Shown in pieces: positions 12,312 to 58,167 of a DNA stretch of 64,000 nt. The position numbers and the translations under genes are program-made. Source of the stretch: Mycoemilia scoparia (Eukaryota; Kickxellomycota; Kickxellomycetes; Kickxellales; Kickxellaceae); the NCBI GenBank assembly GCA_027575805.1, contig JANBPU010000084.1, positions 1-64,000 on the forward strand. Direction: 5' to 3'. The notes beneath the pieces are model-generated. The model was not told the origin of the DNA. It did not search any database and worked only from the letters and a program-made list of their open reading frames with translations. Each line of letters begins with the position of its first letter. The stretch's first letter is position 1.

Positions 12312-12733
12312 CGGTTGTTAGCTATAATAATAAAGGCATTGGTGATACAAATTATAATATGTGGTATTTTTTATAGGATACTTACCAATTTCTGCTGAGC
12401 CTTTTTTATCCGCAATTCTCTCAACTGCTGTTCAAGCTTTTCTGGGTCTTGTGTTTCGCTGAAAACTCCAGCAGCATCAAGATCGCCTCGTTTTAAAGCC
12501 GACTTTTTGTGCCGGTTTTCCTTTTCTATCATTCTTTTTGCTCTGGCTAGTGATGGACCCTTGCCAGTCTACCAAAGCATATATCCAAGATAATAGCTAT
12601 TTAGTAATTGCATTAACAATTACTTTTGCTCTATATTAGCCTTTTACCATTTGTATAGGTGTTCACTTGCCTTTGCCTCAAGAACACCAATGCTCCAACG
12701 CAATTGCTTTCCCGAAACCACATTATCCTTCAT
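12268..12733 (-). CDS. Small conserved-looking 99-aa protein, 3 exons
   Basis: Not recognised. Exons 12733-12671, 12568-12386 and 12321-12268 join in phase to 99 aa. It begins MKDNVVSGKQLRW, has a charged, helix-rich middle (SLARAKRMIEKENRHKK) and ends near TTDAIIDMFYANAASY. Charge, heptad-like spacing and clean splice phases argue for a real gene, probably nuclear or nucleolar. Intron 1 (102 nt) uses a GC donor, AAG|GCAAGT. The last 17-44 nt overlap the BUD22 start region on the same strand in another frame, so either the two are separate overlapping genes, or one transcript carries both. Confidence 0.55.
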
Positions 12734-13034
12734 TTTAAAATGTTGTCATAAGCCGGTTGTAAAATTCAACAAGAAACGAAATTAAAAAGAAAATGCAAGA
12801 AAAAAAATATAGTTGGATGAAAAATTATGGAGATCAAAAGACAAAAATCAGGGTTAGAGAAAATAAAAATAATAAAACCATAATGCCAAATAGCCCATTA
12901 TCGTTGTAATAATCTTGAATTTTTCACTTTCCAAACAGATCAACCTTGTCTTTTACTAAACCTTTGAATTGAAACACATATATACACACTCGCTCGCTCG
13001 TTCAGAATAACTATATATACTGTAAGATAAAACA

Positions 13035-15239
13035 ATGAACCGAGCACCACAGACAATATCTATAAAACAAGACCCCAAGCACAGGAACCCAAACTTTGAA
13101 GGCTACAAGCTTCGTCTTGTGCCCCAAGAAGAAAGACTTCATGTGTCACAGCTACCACATCCCAGTATTGCCAGCAGCGAAAAGAAAAAGATTCCAACTA
13201 ATGCGTATATGTCTTACCAAGAGCTGCATCACCGTGTACAGTTTAACCATTTGTTCTCGGGCCCAAGGCCTGGAACTTTATTGTTTGTAGCCAATAACAA
13301 CAGCAACAATACAGAGAGTCGGCAGATGGTTATGATGGCAATTCTCCAGCCAGATAGCGATATAAAGTATGAGTCTGTGTTTGATATCCCTGCATCGCCA
13401 TCACTACTAAATAGGGAAACTACACTCTACGGTTACCCATTCATCAAATATCTTGGTAATTCGCTTGTTTTGGTATTTGATGGTATTGAAACAGTTTATT
13501 TGTGTCAAGAGCAGCGCGATCAGGGTAATGGGCAGTGGGGTGTAAGACGCAGACTAAGTTTAGCACACTTGGGCGAGAGCAATAGCGTAGTCCCAACCAC
13601 TGCCACAGACAACAAGGACTCTAGCCAAGAGGATAGCAGCAGCAGCAGCAGCATAATGTATATGATTTTGGCTGCCGATATTTGCGAATACCAACTTCGC
13701 CTGATAGTCACCCATCGGGCAGAGGAAATTACCACTACAAAGCCTTTAGGGTCTCTCAGAAGCCCATCCAAAGACCGTAATAAATTCATTACACGTGTCA
13801 TCGCAGCTCCAATAATTTCTCTAAACCTAAACCTAGGCCAAGCTACTGGAAGTAGTCACGAAGGAAATCGTATTGAACACTTCCAATGCTTACAAACACT
13901 TCAGTCGTCGACTATCCCAGTATATACAGAATTTATGCCCGGAAATCAAGGTCGCAACTATATTTTAGGTTGCGAGTCTAAACTTCAGCCTGTGTATAAC
14001 AATGTTAATGAGCAACAACAGGAACAACAACAACAACAACTAGCTTCTGGAGTCTCTACCTCGCCATCATCATCCCCCTCCTCATTTCCTGTCAATGTTC
14101 TGGCTACTGAACCAAAATCTCATCCATACTATTGGCAGCAAACCGATGAGGATGTAACAGTCTGCATTCCAATTCCACATCCCGATCTGGTCACAACTTC
14201 CCAAATCCAATGCACTATGACAAAATTCGCATTAACCCTAAAATTGGCTCCCGGCAGCCAAGAGAAGATCATTTCGTTCGACCATACAGCATTTTATGAT
14301 CATATTGACCCCGCCAACTCGCTATGGACCCTCGAAGACAACAAAAGCCTATTGACTTTGCATTTACAGAAATCAAGGAGAAAGTTTAGATGGCTGCAAG
14401 TGTTTGATAATAACAGCGATGTTAATAGTAAATATGGAGATGTTGAAGAGACTATGGATCCGAGTGAATTTGCGCTCATAAGAGAGCAACTTGCTAAATT
14501 GACAATGCCAATTTGCGGTAATAACAGCCAATCACCGTTGCAAGGATTATCCAGCAGTCGAGATATTGGGAGTGGTAGATTGTATCAACAAGGATTGGGC
14601 TCTGAATACGATGAAGAGTTGGATTCTGACAATTCGGTGGCTGTGACATTTTCGGTTTGGAGTTTGGCCGAAAAGAAGATGGTTGCTTCGAGCGTTCCTT
14701 TGAGTAATGATTGGATATGTTCTGGATTTAGTAGTAGTAGTAGTAGCAACAGCTCACCATCACCAACCCCTAATTCCAAAAATAATAATGATGACGGGGC
14801 TGCTGGTGACAAGCTTGGATCGTCATGGCTAGATTTATCAACCGTTGTTTGCTTAAAAAATGACGTCGATGGACTGGTTTATCAGTTTTCAACAAACACT
14901 GGAGAAGAAGAAGAAGATAACAACCACAACAGCCCAGCAGTGCTGCTGAAGGCAAGGCATGTCTGTACATTCGGCGCATTCAGCTTTGTCAAGGCCAGTA
15001 AACGCGACACTAGGTTTTGCTTCATCGACCCATATCTTCAGTTTTCCTTGATTGCTGAATCAAGTAGGCGTGTTTATTTGTACCATCGCTGTTCTCCCGA
15101 CTCTCCAAGAAACAGCATTGCGGACCAAAATGTCGTGGATTTGCCAGCCGATGGCTCAGATACGGTTGGCATTCAGCTTATTGGACATTCCAGGCTGGCC
15201 ATTTTGCAAGAAAACAAGCTCTGTGTCTATGATATTTAA
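13035..15239 (+). CDS. NUDCD1-like (CML66) CS-domain protein, 734 aa
   Basis: Single exon. The central part (about residues 365-455) is a CS/p23-like domain of NudC type: it opens with YYWQQTDEDVTV, continues through IQCTMTKFALTLKL, and closes with SLWTLEDNKSLLTLHLQK. The flanking N- and C-terminal regions are beta-rich (for example the start segment GYKLRLVPQEERLH) and correspond to the beta-propeller halves that surround the CS domain in animal NUDCD1 (about 583 aa). NudC-family proteins act as Hsp90-linked co-chaperones and dynein-pathway factors. The extra length here comes from Gln-, Ser- and Glu-rich low-complexity inserts (near 14010, 14060 and 14740). The ATG at 13035 follows an AAACA context and is the first in frame. 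Confidence 0.8.
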   Translation: MNRAPQTISIKQDPKHRNPNFEGYKLRLVPQEERLHVSQLPHPSIASSEKKKIPTNAYMSYQELHHRVQFNHLFSGPRPGTLLFVANNNSNNTESRQMVMMAILQPDSDIKYESVFDIPASPSLLNRETTLYGYPFIKYLGNSLVLVFDGIETVYLCQEQRDQGNGQWGVRRRLSLAHLGESNSVVPTTATDNKDSSQEDSSSSSSIMYMILAADICEYQLRLIVTHRAEEITTTKPLGSLRSPSKDRNKFITRVIAAPIISLNLNLGQATGSSHEGNRIEHFQCLQTLQSSTIPVYTEFMPGNQGRNYILGCESKLQPVYNNVNEQQQEQQQQQLASGVSTSPSSSPSSFPVNVLATEPKSHPYYWQQTDEDVTVCIPIPHPDLVTTSQIQCTMTKFALTLKLAPGSQEKIISFDHTAFYDHIDPANSLWTLEDNKSLLTLHLQKSRRKFRWLQVFDNNSDVNSKYGDVEETMDPSEFALIREQLAKLTMPICGNNSQSPLQGLSSSRDIGSGRLYQQGLGSEYDEELDSDNSVAVTFSVWSLAEKKMVASSVPLSNDWICSGFSSSSSSNSSPSPTPNSKNNNDDGAAGDKLGSSWLDLSTVVCLKNDVDGLVYQFSTNTGEEEEDNNHNSPAVLLKARHVCTFGAFSFVKASKRDTRFCFIDPYLQFSLIAESSRRVYLYHRCSPDSPRNSIADQNVVDLPADGSDTVGIQLIGHSRLAILQENKLCVYDI

Positions 15240-15610
15240 AGGGCAACCCCATGGCCTTTGTGGTGGGGGGGGGTTACCAGAGCGGAATGAAAAATAAGAA
15301 GCGCAGCTTGGGGACGATGTTCTTATAGTATGGAGTAGTTGTTTACTTTCAATAAAACCAGGCTTGATGATAATGCGCACATATATAGCTTTGAGTTGCT
15401 GGCTGCTAACTTGTAATTGTGAAGTTGCATGAATATATAATTGAGCCATTTAATTAAAAACACTCAACCAAAAGGAGGGGAGAGGGCAGGCAACAAGAAA
15501 AATCTGGAGTAAAAAGAGACAGAGAGAGAGAGACATAAACACATATATAGTTATTTAATAGAGTGTGAATATGAGCAATTGTGTGGGTGTATACAAGACA
15601 GTCCGATATT

Positions 15611-16078
15611 TTACTTGGAGGCTTCCTTGTAATCAACAACAGCCTCTTCGCCCATGGAGGTAAGGACGGTGACAATGAGTTCCTTGTCGGCGTCGAATGC
15701 TTCCTGGATCTTGGCGCCCAAGTCGCCCTCCTGGAGCTTAACGTCGTCCTTCATGTTACCTTCCTGGTCCATGAGGTTAAGGAAACCGTCATCGATATCA
15801 ATCAAGGTGTATTCAGCACGCTTAAGGTTGGGCACATCCATGTTGTGGGTGGAAGGAGAGATATCTTCGTACTTCTTGCCAGTGAAGATGTCAATGGCGA
15901 CAAGATGGACCTTGGCGTGGCCGTGCTTTCCGGTCTTGGAGGTGGACATGTCAACAATCTTGCAGGGACGGCCCTTGATGACGACGTGTCCGTTCTTGCG
16001 GAGAGCAGAGCACTGCATGGGGAAGGTGAGAGAGGCACCGGCATCAGCGGATTCGAAAACTTCGGTGTGGTCGGCCAT
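15611..16078 (-). CDS. HYP2: Translation factor eIF5A, 155 aa
   Basis: Promotes elongation through difficult peptide bonds and termination; it is the only protein carrying hypusine. The hypusination loop [11 protein letters not shown] is intact, with the modified lysine at residue 51. The SH3-like N-domain (CKIVDMSTS) and the OB-fold C-domain (starting near [15 protein letters not shown]) are complete. I place the start at 16078 ([10 protein letters not shown]), which matches the family length; an upstream in-frame ATG is not needed. There is no intron in the coding part. Strong bias towards C-ending codons (AAG, GTC, ATC) fits very high expression. Two long antisense ORFs (15581-16178) are shadows of this bias. 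Confidence 0.97.
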
Positions 16079-18490
16079 TTTGTTATTTCGTGGAACTACT
16101 GGTACTTTGTGTTTGTGCTGCAATTACAACCAAGAGTGGTATGCGATGAGGGTATATGTATATAGAGAGAGAAGCTGAGGCTATGGACACAGTAAAGACA
16201 TAAAGGAGGATCGATATTGTTAGTCTCTTTTTTGGAAGGCAATTGTGCAGGGGAAAACATTTTTGCAGATATTGGCTAGATTCAAGGCAAATTATATAGC
16301 ACAGCCATGTACAACATCTGCCGAATTAGTAGCTGAATCAGATGTCACGGCGGTGCTAAGGCAAGCACCAGCACCAGCGGCTGGGCACTAGGCGGCGGAT
16401 AGCACACATAGAAATGCGTCTAATATGTTTCCTAGGCCTTCGCACGGCTGTCGCGCTACACAAAACTACAGCCAATATGAAATAGTATGACGATAAATAC
16501 CTTTTCTGACTACTTTCTAGAGTTAAGAGTAAAAATATAGAAAAGAAGGAAGAAAGATTGCAGGCGGTTGATTCCAACCACAGTTTTGATGCAAAAAAAT
16601 GTGTGTACCCATATCACAACCACAGTGAACAAGGACCGCCAAAGATTTTTTCAACAAAAATAATCAAAGCCCTCCTCCTGCACACGCCCACATTATTCAG
16701 TCTTCCTCTCTACTGTGCTTGAGCCTGGCTTTACTCCCTGTGTGTCTGTTGGCCCCCTCGCAGTGAGAGTGAGACAGGGCGAAAGCAACAGACATTTGTA
16801 CTGGCTGAATTAGCGTGAATGACTGGCTGCTGTTGGGCCGATGGGCAAGGCGCACAACCCAAAACTTATTTGGCAGCATCTTGTCCAATGTGCTGTGAAT
16901 GGTGGTCGTTGTTGTGTGGCGGATAAGTTGGAGAAGAAAAGCCGCCTGTGCTGATGGCAATTGATACCCCACTCATTCATTTTAATCGCTTAGCCTGACT
17001 AGCTGGCAGAGTAGTAATCCCCTCCACAAGGGTGCTAGGATGTTCCCCTGGGTACTAGCCAATCATCCCTGAGGCCCCAGCTAAAATGTATGGGCTATGC
17101 GCTGATTTGCAGGGAATATGTGAGCGCACCCGTCTGTTCCCTTTTGGTAGAGGATTTGCCTGTTGGTTAGCTAACTAACTAACTAACTCTCTCTCTCCTT
17201 CTTTCTTCTAGCAGCCTTATGCTCATGTTGCTATATAGCAAAGAAGGACCATAGACTTGCTGTTGTCAAAAGCAAAACGGCTCTTGAGTGCTTTTGAATG
17301 AAGTCCTTTTGGGCAAGTGGGAGAGGGAGAGATCAGTCATCATATTCAAGGACTGCTCACTGACCCATTATCATATCATATGCAATTGTTGATACATATC
17401 CGATCTGTATCCACCACGCATTGTATTAGAAGATGCTTAGGCAAGGTGGATCCTCCTTCAATTCGAACAGCTGCTGCTCTCTTTGCCCATATAAAGTCTG
17501 GCACATTTTCTCTTCCACCGCCTGGCTGACTGCTTGGTCAATGTCCTGTTGTGTTGTTTCTGTAAAACCTCCTCCCTTTCACTCCATGCTCACGCCCCTT
17601 TTTTCAGAACATCCTAACCCCAGCCAGCTTTATAAATTTCACCACAAAAGGCCATCTTTTCTGACTTTCTATGTTTTGACTTTTCCTTTTTTGCATGCCA
17701 TTACTTTCTCTCTATTATAAACCGCTGCTATAGTCTAATGCTACTGTGAGTGGAGTAGGTGGAGAGAAAAAATTTTGTGTCTCTGGTTCTCAACATTTAC
17801 AAGCTTGCCTGTATTTTTATTGGTCCAGTTTCTTGTCATCTTATGTACTTTTATCAATACTTATCATCATCGATATTTTGCTGTTCAGTTGGTATTGTGT
17901 TGTTATCAGGCGTATTTTTTACAAGTTCTTTGGGTGATTGACCGACCGCTGCTCTCATTTCATAAGTAGGGAAAAATGCATAGAAATTTATTTATGACCT
18001 ATGCTATGGTGATGAAATCAATCCGGTTCAGTTTGGTTTGGTTCGGTTCATTTGTTTGGGTGTCACACATAGATCCAAAACAAAACTCAGTAGGTCAGCT
18101 AGCTAGCTAGCTAGCTAGTTTTTCTTGAAAGACCAGATTTGATTTGCATATTTAATTAAGAAACCCATAGTATATAATTTCAAATATCCATGCATGCGCA
18201 ATATTTCATTATTATAGCTCTAGCTTGCTTTGCTTGAGAAGGAAGGTTCTTTGATATTACAAAGTGACAAACTGCACAGAGCATTTTGTAAAGCCATGAT
18301 GATGAGTACGTATAGTTAATATCAAAGGTTGAGCTTGACTTTTTTCGTTTTCAATTTTATTAGTCTTTATATTTTCAAGATATTCCACCATTAATTTGAG
18401 TGAACGACTGCCTGTATATATATATCTCTCTCTCTCTATTTCTTTATATTACTACTTTTGGCGCTATAGCATTATCATTGCTTTTGAAAC
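16079..18490. other. Divergent promoter region between eIF5A and LSM4
   Basis: About 2.4 kb with no gene I can support. It holds a family B repeat (17022-17168), an AACT tetranucleotide run right after it (about 17166-17188), an AGCT run (18094-18118) and a TATATA/CT-rich tract (18415-18440) shortly before the LSM4 start. Confidence 0.5.
17022..17168 (+). repeat. Family B interspersed repeat, copy 3
   Basis: Matches the copies at 238-386, 10437-10592 and 26230-26395: CCTGGGTACTAGCCAATCAT, AGCTAAAATGTATGGGCTAT, TTGCAGGGAATATGTGAG and CCCTTTTGGTAGAGGA. It is GC-richer than the others, in line with its surroundings. Confidence 0.7.
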
Positions 18491-19379: not shown

Positions 19380-19800
19380 AAACTCTCGCCAAAAAGGCCA
19401 AAAGTTTGCTTATTCTGAGATTATCAAAAACCACCTTGTAAACACTTTGATTGTGGACTATGTCATGTCTCCACCAACTCTTCCTATCTTTCCCGATTGA
19501 ATGAACAGCATTACCTTGCCGATTGGCTTGCACATCAAACAACACAAGTTTAAATGATATACATATATGCTTAGTTATATCATTTATAACATAATGATAT
19601 TATTGTTACTACTAACTATACGGATACATACATATTACATTCTTTTGAAAAACCAAAGGTTCGAATAAATCACAAATATTAACAAGTATATATTGATATT
19701 ATAAAGCATGCATGTATTTTTATGTAGAGTAATGGATCAAGAACAAATTTTCATCTATAGTTTTTTTGGGGGGTTGGTAAAGTATATTCTATAGTCTAAT

Positions 19801-22091
19801 TTAGAATGAATTGGATACAGAGGATGTCGATTTGAATGTCATCGTTATTAGGTAGTAAATAAACCGATCCAGTTCGTTTTGGTTATTGAAAAATATCTTG
19901 GTTTGAGCCGAATCCCCCCATGTTCTCACTGGCTGGACCTATAAATAATAAAAAGAGAACCAGGATTTGGCAAATGTTTTATAATACATGAGATAGAGAT
20001 AGGACTTAATAGGAATCAATGGAAACCTACCTCAACATCTTGGTAATGGCATTGATCAATCAAGTCCCATGTCTCTGCTATATTTACTGAGTATCCGGTA
20101 GCCAACGACCGAGTTGTCGAGTTTACCAATTTGCCTTGGCTAATAGTGAATGGCTTATCATCGATATATATTTCCTGATCAAAAGGTATTTTCAGTTGGT
20201 TCTCAATCTGATCCCGTTCAAAACTAGATAAATAGTCGCCAAGCTTGGATCGCATGTCAGCATCCAAGGCAATACTCTTCTTGGTCTCTAGCTTAAACTG
20301 CATATCGGTGGCTGCCTCTGGCAGCATCACAATTGTTTTGTGGACGCTTTTCAAATACTCTATCTCCAAATGGTCCATGTCGAATCGTCCCTCAATTAGT
20401 GGAATTTTAATAACCACGCTCCCTGATAGGTTTGTGTGGGGCGTATTTTTGGCCGCAACAGTCAGTTCGAGTGCCTGTTTCTTTATTTCCGAAGCATTGT
20501 GCCCCTGTAGCCAGTCAACTGGTGTTCTGTTCGGGAAAAACCAGACGTTTCTAGACTCAGATTTGGGATACATGATGTCTAATGCCTTTTCGAGCGGGCT
20601 TTCGTGCATTTCGATGCTTGATAGCGGGGGCTGTGTTGTCAGGGGTGGCAATAGCGCATTGCCAAAGCTACAACTGATAATGCTTTTAGCATCTTGGTTC
20701 TTCCTGATATGCTTTCCATAAAGGGCAATAATTTCCCTGATGCTCGTCAGATCGCCGCCGTGTATATCTTTGGGCTTGTTGAATGTTTGGACTGTATGAT
20801 CTGTTAAAAAGGAAAGTGGGCTGAAAACTTCATTTGCCTATATTGATGTCAAGACAGCTCTGTTAGTAAACATGTAATTTGGGATATTTGGCGTCCAGAT
20901 AAACAAATGGAGGACAAGACTTGCCTTTTGAGCAGTGACACGATTTATCCAAAGCTCGGAGTTGAATGGTGACATTCTCACTGGATCACTGTGCGGCGTT
21001 ATTTGCAAAGGAGTTTCGTACAATGCATTTTTGGTTGCTGCTACCACAACGTTATCATTTGATTCTACGAGCAATGGGATGATGGATCTTTTGGCCTTTT
21101 GTAATAGCGACGGATTTTTGCCTGTTAATACGAGCCTTCCATTTTCCAAATTTAGTTTGGCCTTATAGTACTTTGAGACCGAACCCTTTAGGATATCAAT
21201 GGTCCGCGAAGTCACTTTGGTAGGCAAACCAGAGTCCGGGATATTGATATTCACAGATTTGCTCGATTCAATCATTTCCAATATCTTGGCTTTTGCTTTT
21301 TCAACATTCTGTTGAGCACCAGCAATGTGAATCTTTTGCGAAGTGGGGTCCATTGTTATAACCACATTCATTGCCTTTTCTAGACCTTCGTAGTAGCTTC
21401 TGTTCTTGGTTAAGACCACCTGAAACTGGGAATACTCCAAATCCAAAGCTTCTCTTTGGACTCCTGAGGTTTGTCCAACAGATCTGCGCTTTCCTATATT
21501 CTCGAGAATCAACAAACCCCACCCAACTTCCATTACTCGATCTATCAGTACTCTTTTAGTTCCACCACACTTTAGTCCTATCAATTTTAAATAGTCCTTT
21601 ATCTGACGTGAAGTAAATTTGTTGTCTATATCCAGCGCAATTCTTTCGTACTGGCTTTGTGTAAGAATATCTTCTCTAGCAACTCCACCAACTACACTCG
21701 TGCCGTTATTTTCTTTTTTCTCTCCTGTTGTTGTTGTCGGCGATGGTTTATTGGGCCGAAGGTCTTCTATTGACTCAGGATTTAGTTCTAACTCACTGAA
21801 TTCCAATTCTTTTTTAATTTTGTACAATTCCTCGGCCTGTCTTTTGCTTTCTTGAGTGTCTTCGAGACTTTCGGGCTCTGGCACCGTCGACTTTTGCCTA
21901 TTTAACATTAGTTGTGATAATGGTCGGTTTTTTCGTGTCCGAATCCAATTAATTGAATTGGTATGCTGGCCATTTGAAAATGCTGATAGTTGTGAAAGTG
22001 GTTTCCAAAGCAGTTGGAATGGTTTTTTTGATACTGGTCTTGCAGCCAGTGCAGCCAGGAATACCATTATTGGGGTTAAATATTTCCGCAA
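19801..22091 (-). CDS. SLS1: SLS1-family mitochondrial inner-membrane regulator, 3 exons
   Basis: Sls1 couples mitochondrial transcription and translation at the inner membrane. Exons 22091-20925, 20837-20031 and 19938-19801 give 703 aa (yeast 643). The N-terminus is basic and Ser/Leu-rich (import signal). Next come a SAP-like segment (FTSRQIKDYLKLIGLKCGG) and KH-like repeats (one around VVITMDPTSQKIHIAGAQQN, another around YYKAKLNLENGRLVLTGKN). The C-terminal part contains RTPVDWLQG and ends after a WGDSAQTKIF segment. Intron 1 (87 nt) starts with GC: CAAAAG|GCAAGT; the exon after it continues the reading frame (ANEVFSPLSFL). Intron 2 is canonical. Confidence 0.78.
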
Positions 22092-22588
22092 AACGAGTTT
22101 AGATTATTGCTACTATTATTTGTTAAATATAAGTAAGAGAATGTAGACATAAAAGAGAGAATGTTAGAAGCGATTTTTGTTCCTGTAAAAAACTATTTGT
22201 ATTGCTTGATCCACCACTACAATAATCTTTTTCATGTTTATGAGAACGATCTCAAGCACTTTTTATTTTTTGGATTTCATAATACAAGACAGAGGACTGG
22301 ATCGCAGTTGATTTGACTTGATTAAGAGCATTGCATTATAGGGAGTAAACGTGAGCTAATTAAAGAATAATAGTTTTGGAAGTTCTCTATAAAATGTAAA
22401 TAGCTTGAACTGTCCAAATACCCCTACAAGGATAGTTCGTTAGCCAAAAGCATATGTATGGAGTTCAACCAAATAATCGCAAACAATAGTTCTTTGGAGA
22501 TTTTTAATTCACCCATTTTATAGAGAAGACTTTAAAATTTAGGATAATTAAGCTTTTTAGTACTCCTAGGGAGTTAGCTGTTTACTAG

Positions 22589-22710: not shown

Positions 22711-22714
22711 GTGG

Positions 22715-32700: not shown

Positions 32701-33497
32701 TTTTGCGAGTTGGCCTCATTGTCTCTCTTTCTTCGTAGATAATCATCATGCCACTCCTTTCCCATGGTAACCAAGAGCACAAACACAAGTGGGCCAACAT
32801 AAGTAAAGAGGTAACCTGTTAGACAAAACAAAGGCAAATCACATTGACTCAGAATGTATTTATAAATATATGTGTGGTTAGAATTCGCAAAGCTGTTGCA
32901 GCATATATGCACTTGCCTGTTTTGAGCGGTGGTATGAATTGGGATAAAGCAACAAGCAGGAAGTACAAGTTGAAGAAGTATTTGAACTGTTCAAAGAGCA
33001 CAACCGGGAGAAAGGATATAAAGCTGTATTTATTGTTCCTGACTACATTCGTGGCATACTTTTTGCGATGAACACCATTGGGATCATTTAAAGGAAACTG
33101 GCGTGGTTTGGGTGGTGCTTTTCTGAAAAAGCCTCTTGGCTGTGTCTGGTGTTGACTATTGTTATTTCCAGACTATATTTTAGAACAACAACCAGAGTGT
33201 TACATACACGCACTGTGATAACATTAAAGCTTTTATTGGTTATGCTCAGCGTATGTGTCAAATGCCTCGCCTTACTTGGTTAAAATTTGTGCCTGGTGGG
33301 TCAACCATTAATGGAACCTCATCGCTGGTATCTGACAGCCTTTGTTTGTTGTTCTTTTTGATACGGGTCATTTGGATAGCCTCATGGCCCATATCGTCTC
33401 TGTCGATAAATGCTCCTCCCTCATCATGATCATCATCATCACCAGGAATGTGTTGATGTTGTATTGACATGAAACGATGTTTGGTGTTTCGATTCAT
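29779..33497 (-). CDS. NEO1: P4-type ATPase (phospholipid flippase), Neo1/ATP9 class, 5 exons
   Basis: Flips aminophospholipids to the cytosolic leaflet of Golgi/endosome membranes. Exons 33497-33276, 33172-32917, 32815-32610, 32535-30900 and 30803-29779 give 1114 aa (yeast Neo1 1151). Neo1-class marks: LNDPNGVH at the N-terminus, [12 protein letters not shown] before the phosphorylation site, catalytic [11 protein letters not shown] (Asp near residue 451), KGADTVM, and hinge [10 protein letters not shown] (near residue 852). About ten membrane segments can be seen, in TM1-2 (exons 2-3), TM3-4 and the C-terminal six. Neo1-class enzymes do not need a Cdc50 subunit. Intron 2 uses a GC donor (ACAG|GCAAGT), which restores KTG|YLFTY. 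The last intron must use acceptor TTGTAG|TG at 30804, because earlier AGs run into a stop. Confidence 0.93.
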
Positions 33498-41067: not shown

Positions 41068-43636
41068 ATGCTTTCTAGGCTATTCGGCGCACCAACGGTC
41101 TCAGCCAGAAGGCTAGGACGATGCTTTCTCTCTACTGATGCCAAAACACCGCTAGCCATTTACATTCACTGGCCATATTGCGAATTGTAGGTAGCTTCTA
41201 ACGTTACACGCACACTTATACCCTGTTCTTTCTAACTAAAGATGCACACATGGCCAATCACATGCAAATGGGCTAAAAATTATGCTTTGATGATGGCCTG
41301 TGTGCGTGTGTGTACACTACTGATTCTCCATTTGGAAAATACCTGTTTGCATAGTAAATGTGCATTTTGCAACTTCAATAAATATTTAAATCCTGCGACT
41401 CCTGACCATGATGGTATGACAGAGTGCCTGATCAAGGAATTGGAGTCGTCCCTCGAGTATTTTGGTGATAAGCGATTTGTGAACAGTGTGTACTTTGGAG
41501 GCAAGCACTCTTAACTTCTCTGATAAATGTTTATACATAGTAACTTGGCATTTGAACTCTAAATAATGACTAGATTTTGGATGTAGGCGGAACACCAAGT
41601 GAGTCTTTGGCCAAGATAGTCGCCTTTAATTCGAGAATAACAACATATGCTTTAGCATACACCAACAACTTTACTGAGCCTGGTGCTCTGTCTTTCTGAC
41701 TTGCTTTGTTTTAAACTAATTCCAGGCCTCACAAAGGTAACCCTTGAAATATAATTTTGGCACTGCTCATCTAATCACCACTCTTTCTTCTTTTCTAATC
41801 AAACATGTATATCAATTTTAGCCTGGATGTATAGAGCAAATACTATCACGCATTTATAAACGATGTAACGTTTCTCCAGATGTCGAAGTCACACTAGAAG
41901 TATGATTCTTTTCCACTAAACGTCCAAAGACAATAAAAACTTTGTCGTTACAAATTAACAAATTGATATTCCATTGCTTCTAATAGTCAAACCCTACAGT
42001 ACGTATAAACTTAGAGAGATTCAAAACAACATAAATGCTGCAATATATCAAAACATTGGCTATCATGATGACCATAGGCGGCGGAGATAGACAAAATGCG
42101 TGGCTTTTGGACAGCTGGCATAAATAGATACTCTATCGGCCTCCAGGTATTTTTAGCCATCACACACCAATCACTTTGTAACAGTTAACAAGCTATGGAT
42201 AATCAACATCTTGAATGAATAATATATTAATAGACTCTGAATGATAACATTCTCAAAAGAATGGGCCGGTTACATAGAGCTAGTCAAGGAATAAGCGCTA
42301 TAAACACTGCTCAAAAGCTGTTCGATAAAGGGGTTACTTTTGACCTTATGTTTGGATTTGAAAATCAGTCGACAAGTGATTGGAAAAATGAACTTGAGGC
42401 AAGTCACAACCAAAAGTTTAAACCTCACCTCCCCCTCCCCCACCCCCTCCCAATTGATCTAAAGCACTTTGAATTATATTAACAATAATAGTTTTCATTA
42501 TAGGAGGTCTTGAAAGCCACTGATAGCAGCCACATGTCTATTTATCAGTTAACAATCGAATATGGAACTCCGTAGGCACATTAAAATATTATTTAAGATC
42601 AAAATAAATCCATCATCGCCATTGCTACATATCAAACCACTAATATTTCAAACTGTCCATAGACTTTATAAAGATCATGAAAAGCAAAAGTATCGCACTC
42701 CTGAACCCGACATACTTGCAGAAATGTATGAAACCACCGTTGAGACAATGAACAGCCATGGATACCACCACTATGAGGTATCCAGCTACGCCAAAAATCA
42801 AAGCTCAGAAAGCTCCCACAACAAAAACTACTGGTTTGGAAGTGACTATATTGGAATCGGACCTGGCGCTCATGGAAGATTCACTGACCCCAGTACAGAA
42901 AAACGAAACTCTACAATAAGAGTAAGAGTATAAAGCCGTACAAACTTGCTGTTCCCTCTCTATCTATATTTTGAGCACAAGTGTTATTATAACTGAATAC
43001 TTTATTTATATCAAATTTATAGATTCGTGAACCAAATCGTTGGATGGAAAGCTGCAAAGAAATTGGGCATGGGTAGGTTACTAGTATTTATTAGCTTAAA
43101 ATATAGAACCTTTGAATAATATTCTAATATATATATATACTTAGGACTGCTAAATGCACTGAAATTTCACTAGAAGAAACTAAACAGGTATGAATTATAT
43201 TACAAGCTTGATTAGTATTAATTAATTGGTTATTGATCACTAGCTTTGAATTGTTATAATAACTGTACTTTGATTAGGAGACTGTGATGCTTGGTCTAAG
43301 AACCAAATATGGCATATCAAATTCAAGGTTCACGAAATTTTCAAACGGTCAGTCTCTACTAGATGTAAGTCCATAAACACATATACAAACATTGAATATT
43401 CTCTCATCAATGTTTAGCCTCTAAAGACATTCATTATTGTAACCTAAGAGCTAATTTGATTTTTATTTTCGTTTGTTTTTGAAAAGTATCTCGACTTGGA
43501 TCTTATAAAACTGCACGAAAATTCCGGGTTATTAAAGATCTCGCAGACCAATGACGAAGATAAAGATATCACGATTTTGCCTACAGAAAATGGCTTAAAG
43601 GTCATTGATAGTATTTTGGCCGATATAATTCCATAG
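41068..43636 (+). CDS. RSAD1: HemN/RSAD1-like radical SAM protein, 14 exons
   Basis: Relative of coproporphyrinogen dehydrogenase HemN; eukaryotic RSAD1/HemW forms are mitochondrial heme-trafficking proteins. Exons: 41068-41186, 41355-41500, 41587-41598, 41726-41736, 41822-41899, 41987-42002, 42091-42146, 42234-42398, 42504-42571, 42663-42921, 43023-43072, 43145-43187, 43278-43364, 43487-43636. They total 1260 nt, 419 aa (human RSAD1 442). The FeS-cluster motif CEFKCAFC (CxxxCxxC) is built by joining exons 1 and 2. GGGTPSLTK comes from exons 2, 3 (12 nt) and 4 (11 nt). Next are NPTVHKMRGF, INRYSIGLQ, the LTIEYGTPLY box, and GIGPGAHGRF. The N-terminus looks like an import signal. Introns 2 and 8 have GC donors. 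Loss of any micro-exon would shift the frame. Confidence 0.88.
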
Positions 43637-44344: not shown

Positions 44345-44988
44345 TTATTCTATTCACTTTTCTTATTAATGATATTAAATACCTATTCATAAATAAATGT
44401 TGCCGAGTATGAAGTTTATGGCTATGAGATCCATCAATCATCAAGTCAAACAAAACAGCTTTAGATTTATATGAAGCAGAAGTGAGCAAATAATACTTGC
44501 CTTCTGTGCTTACTTGAGATTTCCCAAAAAAGATATGCATGATTGACAAGTAAAGTGTGCAGGCATGAATGTAAAATGCATGGATCCACTTTTGAATTTA
44601 AAGCAAACTTCGAGGTGCAAAAGGAGCCTATTGTTTATCAGGATTAATCTTGATAAACGAGATTTCAAAAATGGCCAAGTTGTTCTAGATTTCTTTATAA
44701 CTAATCTGTACTATACTTTGTTCTTGGAAAAACTACAGATAATGATATAAACTGGCATAACCCCCATAATATAATGCAGTCACTTTCTATTAGCTATTAC
44801 TGTGTGTGTTTTTGGTACCTGGCTCCTTTTGTTCCTATTTTCATATATAATCATATAATCACACATATATTCTCCGACTACTGTGCAGGACCACAGATAG
44901 GCTTCCTGGTATTACCGCATTTTGTGGCTTTAAAAGAGAGAGAGTGAGGAACGACGTCATTGTTTTGTTATACAAAAACACACAAAAT

Positions 44989-45688
44989 ATGACTACGCTG
45001 AATACTTATGAGGAGTATCTACCACATGGTTCGTTTTATTACCTGCAGGGGCTGGTCCTCTGGATATCGCATATTGTATTGTGGATTGGAAATGTTCTAA
45101 CAGCCTTGTCCAGCACAAACCCATATGACAGCATGCCGACGAAGAAGATAAATGACCGCAACAATAGTAAGAACATAACTGCAAAGCACCATTCGCATGG
45201 CAACAGACTAGCCACTATGATCCCAAGCAGTTCTCTCAAGGAAAGGGTTGAGTGGATAGATGGGATTCTTGAGTCATACGGTCAAAATGTTTCCAGTGAA
45301 GGAGAGTGCAAAAGCAACAGGATGATTAGGATTCCCCAGAGCAAAGCCAGCACACTGCCTACCATGGGAATAGACGAGCTCCGAGAAAAGATAGCCACTA
45401 AGGGCCAGTATCTTGTCATTTGTGATGGCTTTGTGCTTTGTCTCAATGCCTTTCTTGACGAGCACCCTGGAGGTCCAATGGCCATTCTCCAGATGGTGGG
45501 GAAAGATGCGACCGGTGAGATCAGAGCTATGCACCCTGATTGGGTCATGGACAGAGCAATTTGGCCCTATATTGTTGCCAGGGTTGATACTGCAGATAAT
45601 AATGGACCATGGAAAGTAGGGCAGCAAAAGTCTTTTGTTGAAGACCTTGTATTGCCATACTGCAGGCCTGGAATTCCTGAACCCAAAT

Positions 45689-45730
<42 letters not shown>

Positions 45731-46878
45731 GTGGCAAGTCCGAAAAAGATGAAGGTGTGGCTTTGTTTGATAAAAATATAGGATGTCATCCAGATTATGT
45801 GGCAATTCACCGTGATTATTTCAGGCTTCACCACATGCTTCGATTCAATGGATATTTTGACCGAGACTGCACTCAATATATCAATGAAGCTATTCGCTAT
45901 ACTGTGCTGTTCGGTCTTATGCTTGTCCCAGTTTTGGCAGGATCTGGCTATCTATTCCCATCTATACTTGGTGGCAGTCAGATTTGGACTGGGTGGTATT
46001 TAGTATCGGCTTTGTCAGCAGGGATGCTGTGGCAACAGCTGGCCTTCTTTGCACATGACCTTGGACACAATGGATTTATGACCCAGCGCAAGTATGACGC
46101 AGTGATTGGAATCCTTGTGGCTGACCTGATGGGCGGTCTGAGTATAGGCTGGTGGAAGCAAAACCATAATGTCCACCATATTGTCACCAACCACCCCGAA
46201 AACGACCCCGATATACAGCACCTGCCTTTCTTTGCCATTTCAACACATTTCTTCAAGAATCTGTACTCAACCTACTATAAGCGCACTCTTGATTTTGACC
46301 GATTCTCAAGGCTCTTTGTTCGCTGGCAGCATCGTCTATACTACCTCATCCTTAGCTTTGGAAGATACAACCTCTATGCCTTGAGCTGGAATTACTTGTT
46401 AACTAGCAAGTTTGCCCCATACCGGTGGTTGGAAATTTCTTGCATGGCTGTGTTTACCTTGTGGTTTAGTATGTTCCTCAGACTCATCCCAACATGGCCG
46501 CTGGTGTTCTTATATGTTGTTATCTCGCATGCTACTACAGTGATCCTTCATGTCCAGATTACTTTGAGCCATTTTGGCATGTCAGTAGAATCGCCAGATC
46601 CAATCACAGAGTGCTTCATGGCTAACCAGATTAGAACTACCATGGATATCAAGTGTCCTGCCTGGCTTGACTGGTTCCATGGTGGTCTTCAATATCAGGT
46701 TGAGCATCATCTGTTTCCTAGGCTTCCAAGGCATCAACTTAAAAAGGTCCAGCCATTTGTTAAAGCTCTGTGTGATAAGCATGGTATGAAGTTTACCGAG
46801 TTCAACTTCTTTGATGGCAATGTTTATACATTGGGCCAGATGGCCAAAGTTGCTGAACAAGTAGAAAACAAAGACTGA
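44989..46878 (+). CDS. Cytochrome b5-fused front-end desaturase (delta-8 sphingolipid type)
   Basis: ER membrane enzyme that puts a double bond into sphingoid bases or acyl chains, taking electrons through its own cytochrome b5 domain. 629 aa from ATG 44989. The heme-binding motif is DEHPGGPM (near residue 158), preceded by a hydrophobic leader (residues about 15-40). Histidine boxes: HDLGH (near 354), HNVHH (near 393) and QVEHH (near 569); the Gln in the third box marks front-end desaturases. Four or more membrane segments surround them. A GAT microsatellite (45691-45728) codes for about 13 Asp residues in the linker between the b5 and desaturase domains, so linker length may vary between strains. 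Substrate (delta-8 sphingolipid or delta-6/5 fatty acid) cannot be fixed by eye; the SLD family fits best. Confidence 0.85.
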
Positions 46879-52081: not shown

Positions 52082-54151
52082 TTAATGTGTCCTGGTGCGT
52101 CTTATTGGCAACGAAACAAGCAATGCAAGTCCAATAAAAGGCACCATAGCCACAAAGAACCAGTACAGCGAGTTTTTAAACTCGTCGACTATCTGATGGC
52201 GTAGCGGGTTTGGAAAGTCTTGTTTCCAAATGGCAGATGAATCCTCTTGACACTCAGCAATGCCCTTGGCATATTCTGGATATTGTGCTGCCAAAGCACC
52301 CAACTTGGACCTGAGCTCATTGTTGAAAATCACATCAGATACTGCCAGCCCGACAATACCACCAATGTTGCGAAATAGTGGTACCAGGTTACTTACAACC
52401 GCAAGAAGACTATCATCGACCGCACCTTGTACGACGAGGTTGAATGCCGGGTATGTTATTCCAATGCCTATTCCGGACACAAGCATAAATACAACTTGTT
52501 TGGCAAAGCTGGATTGGGTGTACAGGATCATGATTCCAGACCCGACCACGGCGAGCCCATTGCCAACCCAAATAAACCAGCGGTAGTGGCCGACCTTGCC
52601 CATCACAACACCGATGACCATGGCAAGAACGCTAATCGAGACCAGCAAGGGCAGCATGCGAACACTGGACCTGGTAATACTGTCATTATTAACGGTGATA
52701 TAGTAGACTGGGATATAGTAGATCAGACTATAAAATACAATTCCAAGGAAGAACAAACTGAGTAACGAAGACAGAACGCTGACATTAGCCAACAGGCTAG
52801 GATGCAAGATGGGCTCCAAAGGAACTTTGGCTTCATAAACAAAGAAACTAGCCACCAGCAAAATGCCGATCACGATAAGACATATAACGGCGGCTGAATT
52901 CCATGGATAGTCCTTTCCGCCAAGCTCGATACCAAGCAAGAACATGACTAGTCCGCCAACCAAGATAGCAGACCCTACGAAATCAACCCTCTTTAGCTTT
53001 TGCTTAAACGTGCCTTTTGGCTTTGGAATCCGAATGCACAGCAACGAAGTTAGAGCAGTAATGCCACCGATCGGCAAGTTTATATAGAAACACCACCTCC
53101 AAGTAACGTGGTCAGCAAACACGCCGCCAATAAGCGGGCCAACAACACAAGCCACCGCCCACATTGCGGCAAACAGGCCAAAATATTTTCCCCGTTCCTG
53201 CAGTGGCGTCAGGTCACTGATGATAACAAGAGTTATGCCAATGAGCCCCGCCGACCCGACTCCAGAAAGTGCTCGGGCAGCGATAAGCCATGTCATAGAC
53301 TGTGCGGTTGCTGACAAAGCAGAGCCCACAAGGAATAGAAGCAAGGCAAACATCAGCATCTCAAGACGCCCAAAAATGTCACTGAGTTTTCCGTATAGTG
53401 TTTGGAATGCAGACGATGTTATCATGTACGAATTGGCAATCCAGGCCGATGTTGAGAGACTGCCAAATTGGTTAGCGATTTGGGGTCGAGTCACTGCAAC
53501 AATTGTCAGGTCCATTGCTCCCAGGAATACGGAGAGACAGAGTCCAATCAGTATAATAATAAACCTGACCCTAGTTATTGGCTGTACTGGTGCTGCTGAT
53601 GGTTGTGACGGGTCCTTGAGGTTTTCAGTGCTCCTCCCATCACTGGAGCCGCCAGCATTTGTTGTATTGTTATTGGTTCCGTGTTCGTTCGATTCCAGGC
53701 GTTTAGCATCATCGCCATCACTAAAGCTTTCACGACTATCGTAGCTAAATACTTGACTTGTTTCAAATGCTCGCTGCTGGAGGTGTTTCTTTTCGTTGTC
53801 TCCTGATGCTGTTGGCGGGGGGGATGCTGCTGCTGATGGTGGGGCACCAGTAGCCACAACGCTGTTGACAGCAGTCTCCAGATTTTGATCGTTGAGACTT
53901 GGCGGAAAGGTAGAAGGAGCGGTCTTGAGGTCAATGCTGGGCTTACTATCTGGATGATTGCCGATTACCCTAGGGGTTTCTCCGCCGGATTCGCTGGGTT
54001 GGCCCTGGCCCCTACTGTTTGCACCTGAGTTAAGACGGCCATCTGTGCCCTCGCTACTGCCATCAGCAAGACTGGGTGCATTATGCCCTTCAGACTTCGA
54101 GCTGGGTATAGCTTTTCGGAGCCATTTTGTAAGGCTATTATTGGGAGACAT
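52082..54151 (-). CDS. MFS drug:H+ antiporter, DHA2 (14-TM) family
   Basis: Exporter in the plasma or vacuolar membrane, likely for toxic compounds or basic amino acids. One exon, 689 aa. A ~190-residue Ser/Asn-rich cytosolic tail precedes TM1 (ILIGLCLSVFLGAMDLTIV). TM1 carries the DHA2 LDxTIVxxA-like mark (MDLTIVAVTRPQIA). Motif A is GKLSDIFGRLEML and antiporter motif C is GPLIGGVFADHVTWRW, followed by INLPIGG. Fourteen hydrophobic segments are visible up to WFFVAMVPFIGLALL; the C-terminus is short. Closest to fungal Azr1/Vba/Sge1-type transporters. GC content is higher than in the flanking spacers, as for other well-used genes here. Confidence 0.9.
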   Translation of the reverse strand: MSPNNSLTKWLRKAIPSSKSEGHNAPSLADGSSEGTDGRLNSGANSRGQGQPSESGGETPRVIGNHPDSKPSIDLKTAPSTFPPSLNDQNLETAVNSVVATGAPPSAAASPPPTASGDNEKKHLQQRAFETSQVFSYDSRESFSDGDDAKRLESNEHGTNNNTTNAGGSSDGRSTENLKDPSQPSAAPVQPITRVRFIIILIGLCLSVFLGAMDLTIVAVTRPQIANQFGSLSTSAWIANSYMITSSAFQTLYGKLSDIFGRLEMLMFALLLFLVGSALSATAQSMTWLIAARALSGVGSAGLIGITLVIISDLTPLQERGKYFGLFAAMWAVACVVGPLIGGVFADHVTWRWCFYINLPIGGITALTSLLCIRIPKPKGTFKQKLKRVDFVGSAILVGGLVMFLLGIELGGKDYPWNSAAVICLIVIGILLVASFFVYEAKVPLEPILHPSLLANVSVLSSLLSLFFLGIVFYSLIYYIPVYYITVNNDSITRSSVRMLPLLVSISVLAMVIGVVMGKVGHYRWFIWVGNGLAVVGSGIMILYTQSSFAKQVVFMLVSGIGIGITYPAFNLVVQGAVDDSLLAVVSNLVPLFRNIGGIVGLAVSDVIFNNELRSKLGALAAQYPEYAKGIAECQEDSSAIWKQDFPNPLRHQIVDEFKNSLYWFFVAMVPFIGLALLVSLPIRRTRTH

Positions 54152-57100
54152 CCAAAAGCTGAGGAACCAACCAGTGGAGGCAGTGATGCTAAAATGGCTG
54201 CGATATTAACAGTGTTGCGGTATGAAAAGAGGAAATCACTAGTCTTGGCAGTATCCTATTATTGCAGCTGGCTAATAAATGGAACTGAGCCGAAGTTTAA
54301 GAATAGACGATATGGTCATATAGGTATATATATATATGTATATATGTATAAGCACACAAACAAAAAGCGATAGTGAAAGACAAAGAAAGACCTTGAAGCA
54401 AGAGATGTCAAGATTCCTAGAAAACTCTGATCAGAGTAAATATGTATATATTTCAATTTCAGCTTCTACAACTACGAGTATATTTATGAGAAATGAGAGA
54501 AAGAGGGGATATTAGTGATCTGCAAGTAAATGGATGAAGACAGATTACAAAGAAACTACAAAACAAAGTCAGTGAGAGTGTTTATATAATAATTCCTTGG
54601 AGAGAGAGAGAGAGAGATCGGACAATACACGATAACATAAACTGCTAAAGGCAGCAAGTGCTGGGATTAGATAAGGGCTACAGAGCGTGTATATAGAGCC
54701 AAAACAATTGGCAAAGGATTATGCAATTGGGATTTTCACTTCTTGGGAGAATGTCAATGTGGTGCACTTCCAAAATGGGGTGCCTGTTGGTACACAACCA
54801 AATCGGCATGGATAGCAAATGGCAATAACAGCAGCAGCGGCGGCGGTGGCGGCGCGGTGGTGCTTGTGTTGGCGAAGGGAGGCTGTTGTGACAACGGCAA
54901 CACAAAAAGAACACATTTGTAACATGACAAAAGCACCACATACATTCATGATTGCGCGTCGGCAGAGCCGAACAGTGCTAAAGATGTGTGTGAATGAGAG
55001 TAGGAAAAGCTGAGGCCACAAAAATGGTGATCTGCAAAGTCTGGGACTACAACAGTAGCAGCTTTGCTCAGCGAAACTATTACAATGTGCAGCCCAGACG
55101 AGCAAGCCATGAAGAAAACGTGTATTTTATTCACTTGGAATGAAGAATAGCTGAAAATAATCTATGCACATGCATGGGTGTGAGAATGCATCGGCTAGTA
55201 GAATAAGCCAAATGCCATGGTGGCAGTGTTAGTTATTACATACATACAGCTGCCTTCTTTCCTTATTTCTTTGTGTGAGCAAACCAAGCTATTTTGTGTA
55301 AATGGCGGTGATGCTCCAGCAGGTGTATAGTGCTTTATGTAAGGCAGTCAATAAACTGCAAAATAAATGGCCTTCAAATGGGCATTCTGATCCCAGATCA
55401 GCAGCCTTGCCTAATGGTTGTCAACTTGCAGGCTCTCCATCAAAAGCAAACCAGCCTGCACCTCGTGCCTCCTGGGGGGATTTGGCCCATAGGCCACACC
55501 TTTTGGGGCTGTTTTGGCAGGATTATTCTGGCGCGCTTTTGGAGGAGACTATGCCAACCACAGCATATCAGCGTTTGTGGGGGCTTGGTCAATACAAAAT
55601 TCTGGGCAATAATACACCCTCCTTGCATGTTAAGCCATTATTTATACCCCCACTTTTTCGCCGACAGCAGCAATAAAAAAGAAAGGTAGTTGGCCATATG
55701 GGTCGCTATTTTGGAGGGCTAAATTAATATTATCAATGGTTATATAGGCTGACCAATATGCAAGTTGAAACTATTGGCCTACTAGTAAAAATTATTGCCA
55801 ATATGAACGAGCGAACGAGATGCTGCGATGTCCCATTTATCCTTGGTAGTAGCTTTGATCCTCTTGTAATAAAACAATAGGGAAAGGTCTCTATGTCATA
55901 CTCTTTCTTTTCAGTCATCTGATCTGGGGGGCTTTTTCTTGGAAGAAAGGGTCTTGAATTCAGCAACATGTAAAGCTGTGCAGACAATGCTGTATGTAAC
56001 ATGATCCTGTTGCAAGTCGTCTTGGCTGTTAATCTTCAAAAGACGCAACAGATCTATCAGCAGCACCTTTATATTTGCATTAACCAATGCAGCACATACA
56101 AATACATATGCCGTCACAGCTAAACTGGACATAATATAACTCACATGTACACAAAAGCAATGATTAGCGCCGCCATGCACACATTTGTATTATAGCGCTT
56201 CCATTTGTGTATGCGAATAAAGATATGGTACCAAAAATAAACCACATCTTTAGCTTTATTAAAAGCAGCTAAGCAAATAAGGGAGCAGCTACGAACATAC
56301 ACAATGCCTTCAAACTTATGGCCGGATATCGAGCCATTCTCACGCATAGGTACACGCACGCACGCACGCACGCACCTAGGATTCGACCTGATGCAAAGGC
56401 TTTATTTCCCAACAGCTACAAACATCCAAGAATATCTTTTATTAAGGAAGAAGACCAAGTTGGGGCAACTTGAATGCAGAACTGCAATACAAACACCTAA
56501 CATCGCCAATGTATCAAGGGAAGCGTGCACGCCTTTTTTGTTGCATGTGTTTTGTTGTTACTTGCATCTTTTCTTTAGTCTTGCCTATAAATCAAAATAA
56601 CAGATTGGGAGAGATTACCAGAAAGAAGATGGCAGGCCAGTTCCAATGGGATCTCTTGGGCAAAGCCACACTCAGAGACACATGTAGGCCCAGTAAAAAA
56701 TGGTGCCGCCACTGATATTATCTAAGCATTAATCTTCTTTTTGTGCTTGAGGATTAGTTGTTTACTTTGCACAATTACAAAAGAAACAACAGTGGCACTG
56801 TTATTGTTATTGCTGTTGGGGTCAAAAATTGGCTAAACCATTGGTGGAGGTTTGTAATTGTGGACTCGTTATTGTTTATTGTAAAACAACTTTTTATTAA
56901 AAGTAGCAAACTGCATTAAAAAAGAAACACGCCTAGTTGTGTGCACAACGAAGGCCGAAAATATGCTTTGCATGTGTGGTATAGCCTCTTGGATCAATTC
57001 TCAGTGCTTTCTCCATTATTCGTGTCTGTTTTGTTAACTCAATTATGCTTGCGCGCTCTCCCTCTTCAATTAAATACAAATGCAATGCCACTGCTGCAGT

Positions 57101-57252
57101 CATGCCTACGAACTAACCAGTTAGATAGAACCTATTTGCCTAACATCATCACATTGTCATGTTTCCATTTCTTGATAAAACAATGACCTCAAGCTTATTT
57201 TTAGAAATTTAGGGGGGAGATTGTTATAAATGCAAATGTATGTTTATGTATT
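54152..57252. other. Spacer between MFS and SOSS-B genes
   Basis: About 3 kb without a gene I can support. It holds an AG run (54600-54617), a GGC/GCA-rich tract (54826-54852), an ACGC run (56350-56376) and one short MITE-like element (55696-55804). Several ORFs of 60-130 codons lack motifs and splice logic. Confidence 0.45.
55696..55804 (+). mobile_element. MITE family C, copy 1
   Basis: ATATGGGTCGCTATTTTGGA at the left and AATTATTGCCAATATGA at the right. The centre AAATTAATATTATCAATG, then CAAGTTGAAACTATTGGCCT, is shared with 57253-57377. The ends resemble the 120-bp MITE but the core is different. Confidence 0.75.
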
Positions 57253-57377
57253 TGGATATATACTATGAAGGGCCAAATTAATATTATCAATGAAAATATA
57301 GCCTGGCCAGTATGCAAGTTGAAACTACTGGCCTACTAGTAAAACCTGGTAGCCCTTCAAAAATAATAATCCATATG
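57253..57377 (+). mobile_element. MITE family C, copy 2, overlapping the SOSS-B 3' end
   Basis: TGGATATATACTATGAAGGG to AATAATAATCCATATG. The core matches copy 1 (ATGCAAGTTGAAACTACTGG and CCTACTAGTAAAA). Its right terminal repeat supplies the last codons and stop of the SOSS-B gene on the minus strand. Confidence 0.78.
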
Positions 57378-58167
57378 TGTTTGTACGTGACATTGTGGTC
57401 ACCTAGTTTTTTGCTCTCTAACATTAACCGCATTTACAGCTTTGGGATCATCACTTGGAACCCACTGGAATTCGCTTACGTTCGGTGCCTCGACAAATAA
57501 CATTACATCCCTGGATTGATACAAAAATAGACACATGCACACAAGCACATTTATGTAATATTAGAATAGACGATTCACCCCTTTCTCTCAAATTTTACCG
57601 TGCTTATATATAGATCAATAACCAACTTACTCTCCTAATCTTTTGACTTTTCCAAACCTCGTTGGCATTAACTGAAGCGACCCCTTGAAAAGCTTGGCCT
57701 CACTATGACAATCGAAAGCAATCGTCAGCACCCATCACCACAAAATTTAGTTAGGTCCAAATAATAAATGATTTACTCAACAATATGATATAATCAGGTG
57801 GTGATACTTGCGCATTTTCGATTCGTATTATATCGCCATTTCTAACCCATTTTCCATCTTCTCCCCAAATACTCATTATAATACTGGCAGTCTGATCCGC
57901 GACCTTGAAAGTATGAATAGTTATGCCATCTCGAGTTTGCGTGGACATTGCTATTTATCATCATCATCATCATTAAAAATGAAAAATTCAATTGTTTACA
58001 CTAATAAAAAAACAAGATACAAAGGCTTCAGCATTTATGTTTAATAGTTCTTGATCTTGCTTGCCTGTTTGGAGAACTATAACCTGACAGTCAAATCCTC
58101 TCATCATTGGTCTCATATCTTTGATGCTGATAAGGTGTTGACCAGGATTCAATGGTATTTTTATCAT
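57357..58167 (-). CDS. SOSS-B/NABP-type single-strand DNA-binding protein, 4 exons
   Basis: One-OB-fold protein of the hSSB1 (SOSS complex B subunit) family, acting in DNA repair. Exons 58167-58065, 57950-57812, 57702-57631 and 57510-57357 give 155 aa. Family marks, in order: IKDMRPMMRGFD, VIVLQTAMSTQTRDG, HTFKVADQTASI, the WGEDGKWVRNGDIIRI strand, AKLFKGSLQLMPTRFGKV, and EAPNVSEF at the end of the OB-fold. Introns 1 and 2 both use GC donors (ACAG|GCAAGC and AATGC|GCAAGT); using GT instead gives stops or breaks the family alignment. The final residues HIWIIIF and the TGA are encoded by the end of a MITE. The protein is absent from yeast and shorter than human SOSS-B1 (211 aa), lacking its tail. 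Confidence 0.8.

Follow-up and report, generated by a model that had tools for sequence, protein, structure and literature searches.

A high share of putative GC-AG introns in the genome of the fungus Mycoemilia scoparia

GC-AG introns are very probably real and common in the fungus Mycoemilia scoparia, judging by reading frames, protein homology and decoy tests applied to its DNA. Seven were proposed in the window, by which we mean the whole 64,000-nucleotide stretch analysed (contig JANBPU010000084.1, positions 1 to 64,000, forward strand; C450 in our numbering). The assembly searched contains 21.16 Mb in 466 contigs. The first-pass annotation of the window had called such introns unusually common across unrelated genes, and this description extends to the genome. 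The predicted excess is genome-wide, spans many contigs and unrelated genes, and amounts to a share of about 10%.

The GC-AG share is normally about 1%, and abundance elsewhere had been tied to very high G+C. In fungi, GT-AG introns make up 98.7% on average (PMC7072748). The introns described here resemble the U2-type GC-AG introns known from other eukaryotes, where they make up about 1%, in having a GC donor, an AG acceptor, a stronger match to the U1 consensus at the other positions and a standard U1; they differ in a share roughly ten times that of most fungi (PMC7072748). The closest parallels in share are Aureococcus (39.6%) and Micromonas pusilla (22.2%), where a high GC-AG share together with a standard U1 5′ end was termed an enigma (PMC3033335). 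Those genomes are 66–70% G+C (PMC3033335), while this one is about 40% (39.3% in the window, 39.6–48.6% in twenty other tiles). Base composition therefore does not explain the GC share here, and this is not a genome in which abundance could be driven by G+C well above 60%. The high-G+C explanation falls away with a fungus that has a standard U1 and about 10% GC introns at about 40% G+C. A literature search on GC-AG introns and GC donors in fungi, early-diverging fungi and Kickxell gave no report for this lineage, subscription papers being mostly outside its reach.

GC-AG introns in the window

The donors of the seven introns read GCAAGT (5/7) or GCAAGC (2/7), all seven acceptors are AG, as had been listed in the first-pass annotation, and lengths range from 86 to 114 nucleotides (nt). 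Reading through each intron in the frame of its upstream exon leads to a stop (7/7). None has the U12-type donor ATATCC, the U12 consensus as quoted in PMC3033335; all seven fit GCAAG[TC]. Spliced proteins were aligned to solved structures, and homology ran across the junction, with no gap there, for 5/7: one intron in a NEO1-type flippase, two in a HemN/HemW-like radical SAM protein and two in a SOSS-B1-like protein. The earlier claim that both reading frame and family alignment need a GC donor thus stands for these five, and for the other two as far as the frame is concerned.

The flippase intron lies at 32816..32916 on the minus strand (CAG/GCAAGT, the slash marking the exon-intron boundary; phase 1, 101 nt). 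The spliced protein aligns to the N-terminus of NEO1 (7rd6, 9bs1) and is ungapped through PPLKT[G]YLFTY at the junction. It also has an equal-length match to 9vdk, 'phospholipid-transporting ATPase IIA', taken from the match table only. In the HemW-like gene, on the plus strand, the intron at 41501..41586 (GAG/GCAAGC, phase 1, 86 nt) falls within the GGGTPS motif, which is restored as VYFG[G]GTPS in an ungapped alignment to 9p2u. The second, at 42399..42503 (GAG/GCAAGT, phase 0, 105 nt), joins DWKNELE/EVLKATD against the same structure; the junction is ungapped and a one-residue gap follows four residues past it. This intron has a simple repeat inside it, a CCT/CCC-rich run.

Both remaining homology-backed introns are in the SOSS-B1-like OB-fold gene on the minus strand, at 57951..58064 (CAG/GCAAGC, phase 1, 114 nt) and 57703..57811 (TGC/GCAAGT, phase 2, 109 nt). 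A single 91-residue gapless match to SOSS-B1 (5d8f) spans both GC junctions, and the second is ungapped through DIIRIENAEAKLFKG. The alignments to 9p2u and 5d8f bear out the earlier observation that GC introns sit within GGGTPS and within the SOSS-B OB-fold. A GAT run, also a simple repeat, stands ahead of the acceptor of intron 57951–58064.

The last two introns, both on the minus strand, are in phase 0 with donor AAG/GCAAGT. That at 12569..12670 (102 nt) would introduce an in-frame stop if retained and has open frames on both sides; its gene has a weak BUD22 match downstream (11529–12317), below the cut-off. That at 20838..20924 (87 nt) ends in TAG if read through, was chosen by the gene finder, and belongs to a SAP/KH-domain gene (model 19801–22067). 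Pfam gave no domain or family match across either junction, 12670–12569 or 20924–20838. Reading frame is the support for both of these putative introns, joined for the second by the gene-finder call.

The gene finder called 33 introns in the window (31 GT, 2 GC). The earlier GC share of about 12%, given for about 58 introns, was not reproduced by this count but is plausible, because the finder misses five of the seven GC introns. The warning that finders limited to GT would mis-predict these genes holds: such finders would break them, and gene models made in this way would be expected to lose or distort many genes in this genome.

Share of GC donors genome-wide

In the nematode Heterorhabditis, the GC-AG share was 8.9% in the first gene set and only 0.8% after the genes were re-annotated (PMC5906903). 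Because that share proved to be an artefact, decoy dinucleotides were used in the share tests. The gene finder was trained on 200 kb of tiles plus the window and small loci (298 kb), then allowed GT plus one further dinucleotide at a time at equal weight. GC yielded 15 introns, 13 with an AAG core, while each of the 14 other dinucleotides yielded 1–11 introns, 0–5 with an AAG core. With all 15 extra dinucleotides competing at weight 0.05, the counts were GC 13, CC 8, AT 6 and the remainder ≤3. At weight 0.01 they were GC 6, CC 4 and five others 1 each, and the lead of GC was less clear. Training of the donor matrix in the decoy test had included some GC introns; a gene finder retrained on GT donors only called 128 GT and 16 GC introns.

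Protein kinase genes provided a sample picked by PF00069 exon matches and so blind to donors. For the 38 multi-exon loci, alignment to a leave-one-out profile of kinases assigned the same weight to each of the 16 donor dinucleotides. This gave GT 70, GC 10 and 22 for ten others together, the largest of these being TC (6). Each locus was then compared with a GT-only model at a threshold of >7 nats, for which 34 loci were usable (4/38 scored too low). GC was the best non-GT donor by this margin in 8/34 loci (L034, L040, L042, L043, L045, L047, L050 and L068), any other dinucleotide in ≤1. Three kinase GC introns fall in the HRD motif (HR/DMKP, VH[R]DLKP and MH[R]DLKM). The smallest gain among those counted, 7.6, belongs to L034 and lies in a weakly conserved region. 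Six loci (L032, L052, L056, L064, L065 and L067) favour six different dinucleotides other than GT and GC by >7 nats; these preferences are read as unaligned insertions.

Eight GC introns against 70 GT introns correspond to a share of 10% (exact interval 4.5–19%; P=1.3e-6 under a true share of 1%), and against 86 GT introns to 8.5% (3.7–16%; P=5.2e-6). The GC count excludes three additional weak calls, at L040 and L068, and two in the kinase on contig C179, where the 16-way run picked other dinucleotides. GC calls at L035 and L041 from a first run were dropped, having disappeared in the leave-one-out run.

The contrast with decoys weakens when the limit is relaxed to 5 nats (GC 12 loci, AG 10, AA, CA and TC 9 each), since much of the gain can also be recovered with a neighbouring, incorrect dinucleotide. 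Hexamer counts over a maximal-order Markov expectation are supportive only: GTAAGT 1.39, GCAAGT 1.26 and other NNAAGT words 0.84–1.05. A test of branch-point context on NNAAGT words did not separate GT (0.45) or GC (0.39) from decoys (CT 0.55).

Donor flanks, U1 and possible explanations

GT donors in this genome form two nearly exclusive classes, one with a good exon side (AG/GT...) and one with a good intron side (/GTAAGT). Among kinase GT donors (n=86), 27 have AG/, 20 have GTAAGT and none has both (p=2.1e-4); among gene-finder GT donors (n=93) the counts are 28, 25 and 0 (p=2.6e-5). When the pairing of sides was shuffled over the 179 GT donors, 13.8 full matches were expected and zero was never reached in 5000 shuffles. 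Another six kinase regions contributed ten GT donors, including one full match. AG/GTAAGT then stands at 1/96 among kinase GT donors (7.2 expected, p=0.0014) and 1/189 in the pooled set (14.7 expected, Fisher p=4e-8). Exon-side and intron-side strength are anti-correlated (rho=-0.40, n=179), and +4A is favoured.

GC donors have stronger flanks on average. Mean matches to the seven positions of CAG/..AAGT are 5.7 for the window GC introns, 5.4 for the eight counted kinase GC introns and 3.9–4.2 for GT introns. AG/GCAAGT is the donor of the window introns starting at 12670, 20924, 32916 and 42399 and of five introns on other contigs. Of the 14 AGGCAAGT words in the 298 kb, 7 are identified as donors through the gene finder, frame or homology.

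Full-flank words were also counted. The whole genome holds 795 AGGCAAGT and 549 AGGTAAGT, and contig C1 holds 37 and 11. If half of the words are donors everywhere, GC would account for rather more than half of the donors with full flanks, and about three quarters on C1. In a 345 kb sample, the odds ratios of 16 words range from 0.17 for AGGTAAGT (p=0.012, uncorrected for 16 tests) to 1.63 for AGGCAAGT (p=0.16). The former is scarcer in the sampled large contigs (11 in the 705 kb of C1; 2 in 345 kb, excluding U1) than genome-wide (549 in 21.16 Mb), and some of its remaining sites are near contig ends.

Several results weigh against the explanation that we put forward below. Similar words that lack the full flank have a C-to-T ratio of 1.2–1.6 (345 kb), near the genome-wide ratio of AGGCAAGT to AGGTAAGT. 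Counts of words by themselves thus indicate that C is about as acceptable as T at full flanks, without demonstrating a preference for it. The genome-wide deficit of AGGTAAGT is weak (odds ratio 0.84, p=0.003), and that on the forward strand of C1 is not significant (odds ratio 0.56, p=0.18). A real kinase donor of the form AG/GTAAGT occurs at C1:176086 (TGQK/VAIKK), for which reason absolute exclusion of AG/GTAAGT was rejected. Of ten further AGGTAAGT sites on C1, five favour use as a donor over read-through by >7 nats, as do 7/14 AGGCAAGT sites. The window GC introns were selected for being GC and are therefore not an unbiased sample of donors. The kinase GC mean drops to 4.6/7 once the three weak GC calls are included, and the full AG/..AAGT flank is found in only 2/8 counted kinase GC donors. 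GC donors that lack it include TAT/GCAAGT, AAT/GCGAGT and CGA/GCAAGT, and TGC/GCAAGT in the window. Among kinases alone, full flanks number 2 GC and 1 GT, against 6 and 91 elsewhere (p=0.016). Finally, other dinucleotides also gain at the GC loci, with summed gains of 176 for GC, 125 for AG and 53–109 for the others.

A single U1 small nuclear RNA (snRNA) match was found in the genome. Its 5′ end is standard, AUACUUACCUG, carrying the usual ACUUACC, and C at donor position +2 (+2C) therefore mismatches U1 as it does elsewhere. The base opposite +2 in this U1 is not complementary to C, and the simple idea of a compensatory U1 fails. The earlier proposal that U1 recognition has changed to favour GC is not supported, given this 5′ end and donors that show flank compensation; tolerance of GC may come about through proteins. 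The genome has two zf-U1 matches, one of which resembles U1-C by its zinc finger; U1-C, which the first-pass annotation had suggested inspecting along with U1, is present with a normal zinc-finger match. There is one LUC7 locus, and PF05971, the METTL16 family, gave a partial match to one exon (E=4.8e-6). A search with RF00026 (E≤0.01) did not detect U6 snRNA, although U1 was recovered from the genome; the U6 gene might be interrupted by an intron, be divergent or be absent from the assembly.

The U1-C zinc finger (L010:140–330, at the start of contig C444) reads NSGWKHK. The motif is CSGRKHK in human and AGYKHK in plants, and the odd residue was not used as evidence. The first exon junction of this gene, near the contig end, has no clear GT or GC donor.

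The explanation we put forward, which may equally well be right or wrong as a whole, is that about one intron in ten genome-wide is a genuine GC-AG intron of U2 type, spliced by ordinary machinery whose U1 is standard. The +2C would cost one U1 pair and the contacts of +2U in the catalytic core, and such a donor could survive by pairing with U1 at nearly all other positions. After hand-over it could hold both U5 loop 1, through the exon AG, and the U6 ACAGA box, through +4 to +6, which would compensate for the lost +2U contacts. The same reasoning is given for human GC sites (PMC11732430), and we lean slightly towards such compensation by both donor halves as the reason that GC donors survive here. 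A GT donor perfect on both sides might in turn be disfavoured, perhaps through too-tight U1 binding or too-early commitment; change from T to C at +2 of such sites would then be near neutral or favoured, and the GC share would rise with U1 unchanged. Avoidance of fully matching GT donors is an unlikely component. We are just as doubtful that GC-AG introns make up a third, regular class of donors in this lineage, in which selection leaves AG/GTAAGT nearly empty and AG/GCAAGT fills its place. If this were true, +2C would be a brake on over-strong donors and not a defect, and an identical constraint might account for abundant GC-AG introns in other lineages whose U1 is standard.

Two major classes of 5′ splice site, AG//GU and //GURAG, have been described (PMC11732430, PMC10581693). 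The donors here resemble them in the anti-correlation of exon and intron strength and in the preference for +4A. They differ in that full-match GT donors are rare and AG/GCAAGT is common, a combination that the available parts of these two papers do not describe. In yeast, hyperstabilised 5′ splice sites are handled specially (PMC5779234), and a ceiling on U1 pairing might be one reason for the rarity of full-match GT donors here. Common to both is the idea of tuned U1 pairing, with special treatment where pairing is excessive; the yeast case concerns an engineered substrate, while ours is a sequence pattern of natural donors. Coupling of exon and intron sides is known elsewhere; its strength here and the 10% share are new. 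The analysis offers a testable rule, that GC is tolerated, and perhaps preferred, where both donor halves are strong, and a possible ceiling on 5′ splice site strength becomes accessible by counting within one lineage.

Three other explanations were weighed. GC donors may simply be near neutral where flanks are strong, as in other eukaryotes. The 10% share would then stem from drift or weak selection, while the two donor classes would reflect a general exon/intron coupling unrelated to +2C. Exon and intron consensus are indeed negatively coupled in almost all of 30 eukaryotic species (PMC10599564), human GC sites also retain -1G and +5G (PMC11732430), and the word ratio of 795:549 lies near that of similar words. 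Such plain tolerance is nevertheless rather unlikely, given that AG/GTAAGT falls about fifteen times below expectation in the donor sets, yet the model fitted to human still gives CAG/GTAAGT the minimum energy of all donors (PMC10599564), and that C1 holds 37 AGGCAAGT to 11 AGGTAAGT.

A changed U1 small nuclear ribonucleoprotein, in which U1-C, LUC7 or a modification of U1 recognises +2C or skips +2 so that GC almost equals GT, is more doubtful still. It would account for the 10% share, changes could lie in the U1-C and LUC7 genes, both of which the genome has, and modification or U1 proteins have been proposed for the two G+C-rich algae with a standard U1 (PMC3033335). Three results speak against it: the standard 5′ end of U1, GA and GG donors that stay at decoy level when ignoring +2 predicts them, and flanks that are stronger in GC donors than in GT donors. 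It is hardly credible, lastly, that the GC introns are an artefact invented to rescue frames. The Heterorhabditis precedent shows how this can happen, but five junctions here align without a gap, and the equal-weight decoy tests single out GC among 15 non-GT dinucleotides.

Other introns of the HemW-like gene and neighbouring genes

GC donors occur in 2/10 introns examined in the HemW-like gene, the other eight being GT-AG introns on the plus strand with varied donors. The first of these, at 41187..41354 (GTAGGT), restores a CEFKCAFC motif when spliced. Introns 41599..41725 (GTGAGT) and 41737..41821 (GTAACC) flank an 11-nt exon (41726–41736), and introns 41900..41986 (GTATGA) and 41999..42077 (GTACGT) flank a 12-nt exon (41987–41998). 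These micro-exons are required for GTPSLTK and ESNPT. The remaining three are at 42147..42233 (CAG/GTATTT), 42572..42662 (GTAGGC) and 42922..43022 (GTAAGA).

Neighbouring genes in the window encode a 2-hydroxyacid dehydrogenase (1275–2252), a CS-domain protein (13026–15236), a cytochrome b5 desaturase (44851–46875), an MFS transporter (52085–54205) and a muniscin-type mu-homology protein (59362–61878). The best relatives of the desaturase are from Coemansia, Linderina, Martensiomyces and other Kickxellales, at about 49–52% identity, followed by matches from Smittium and Dimargaris intermixed with weaker ones from Coemansia.

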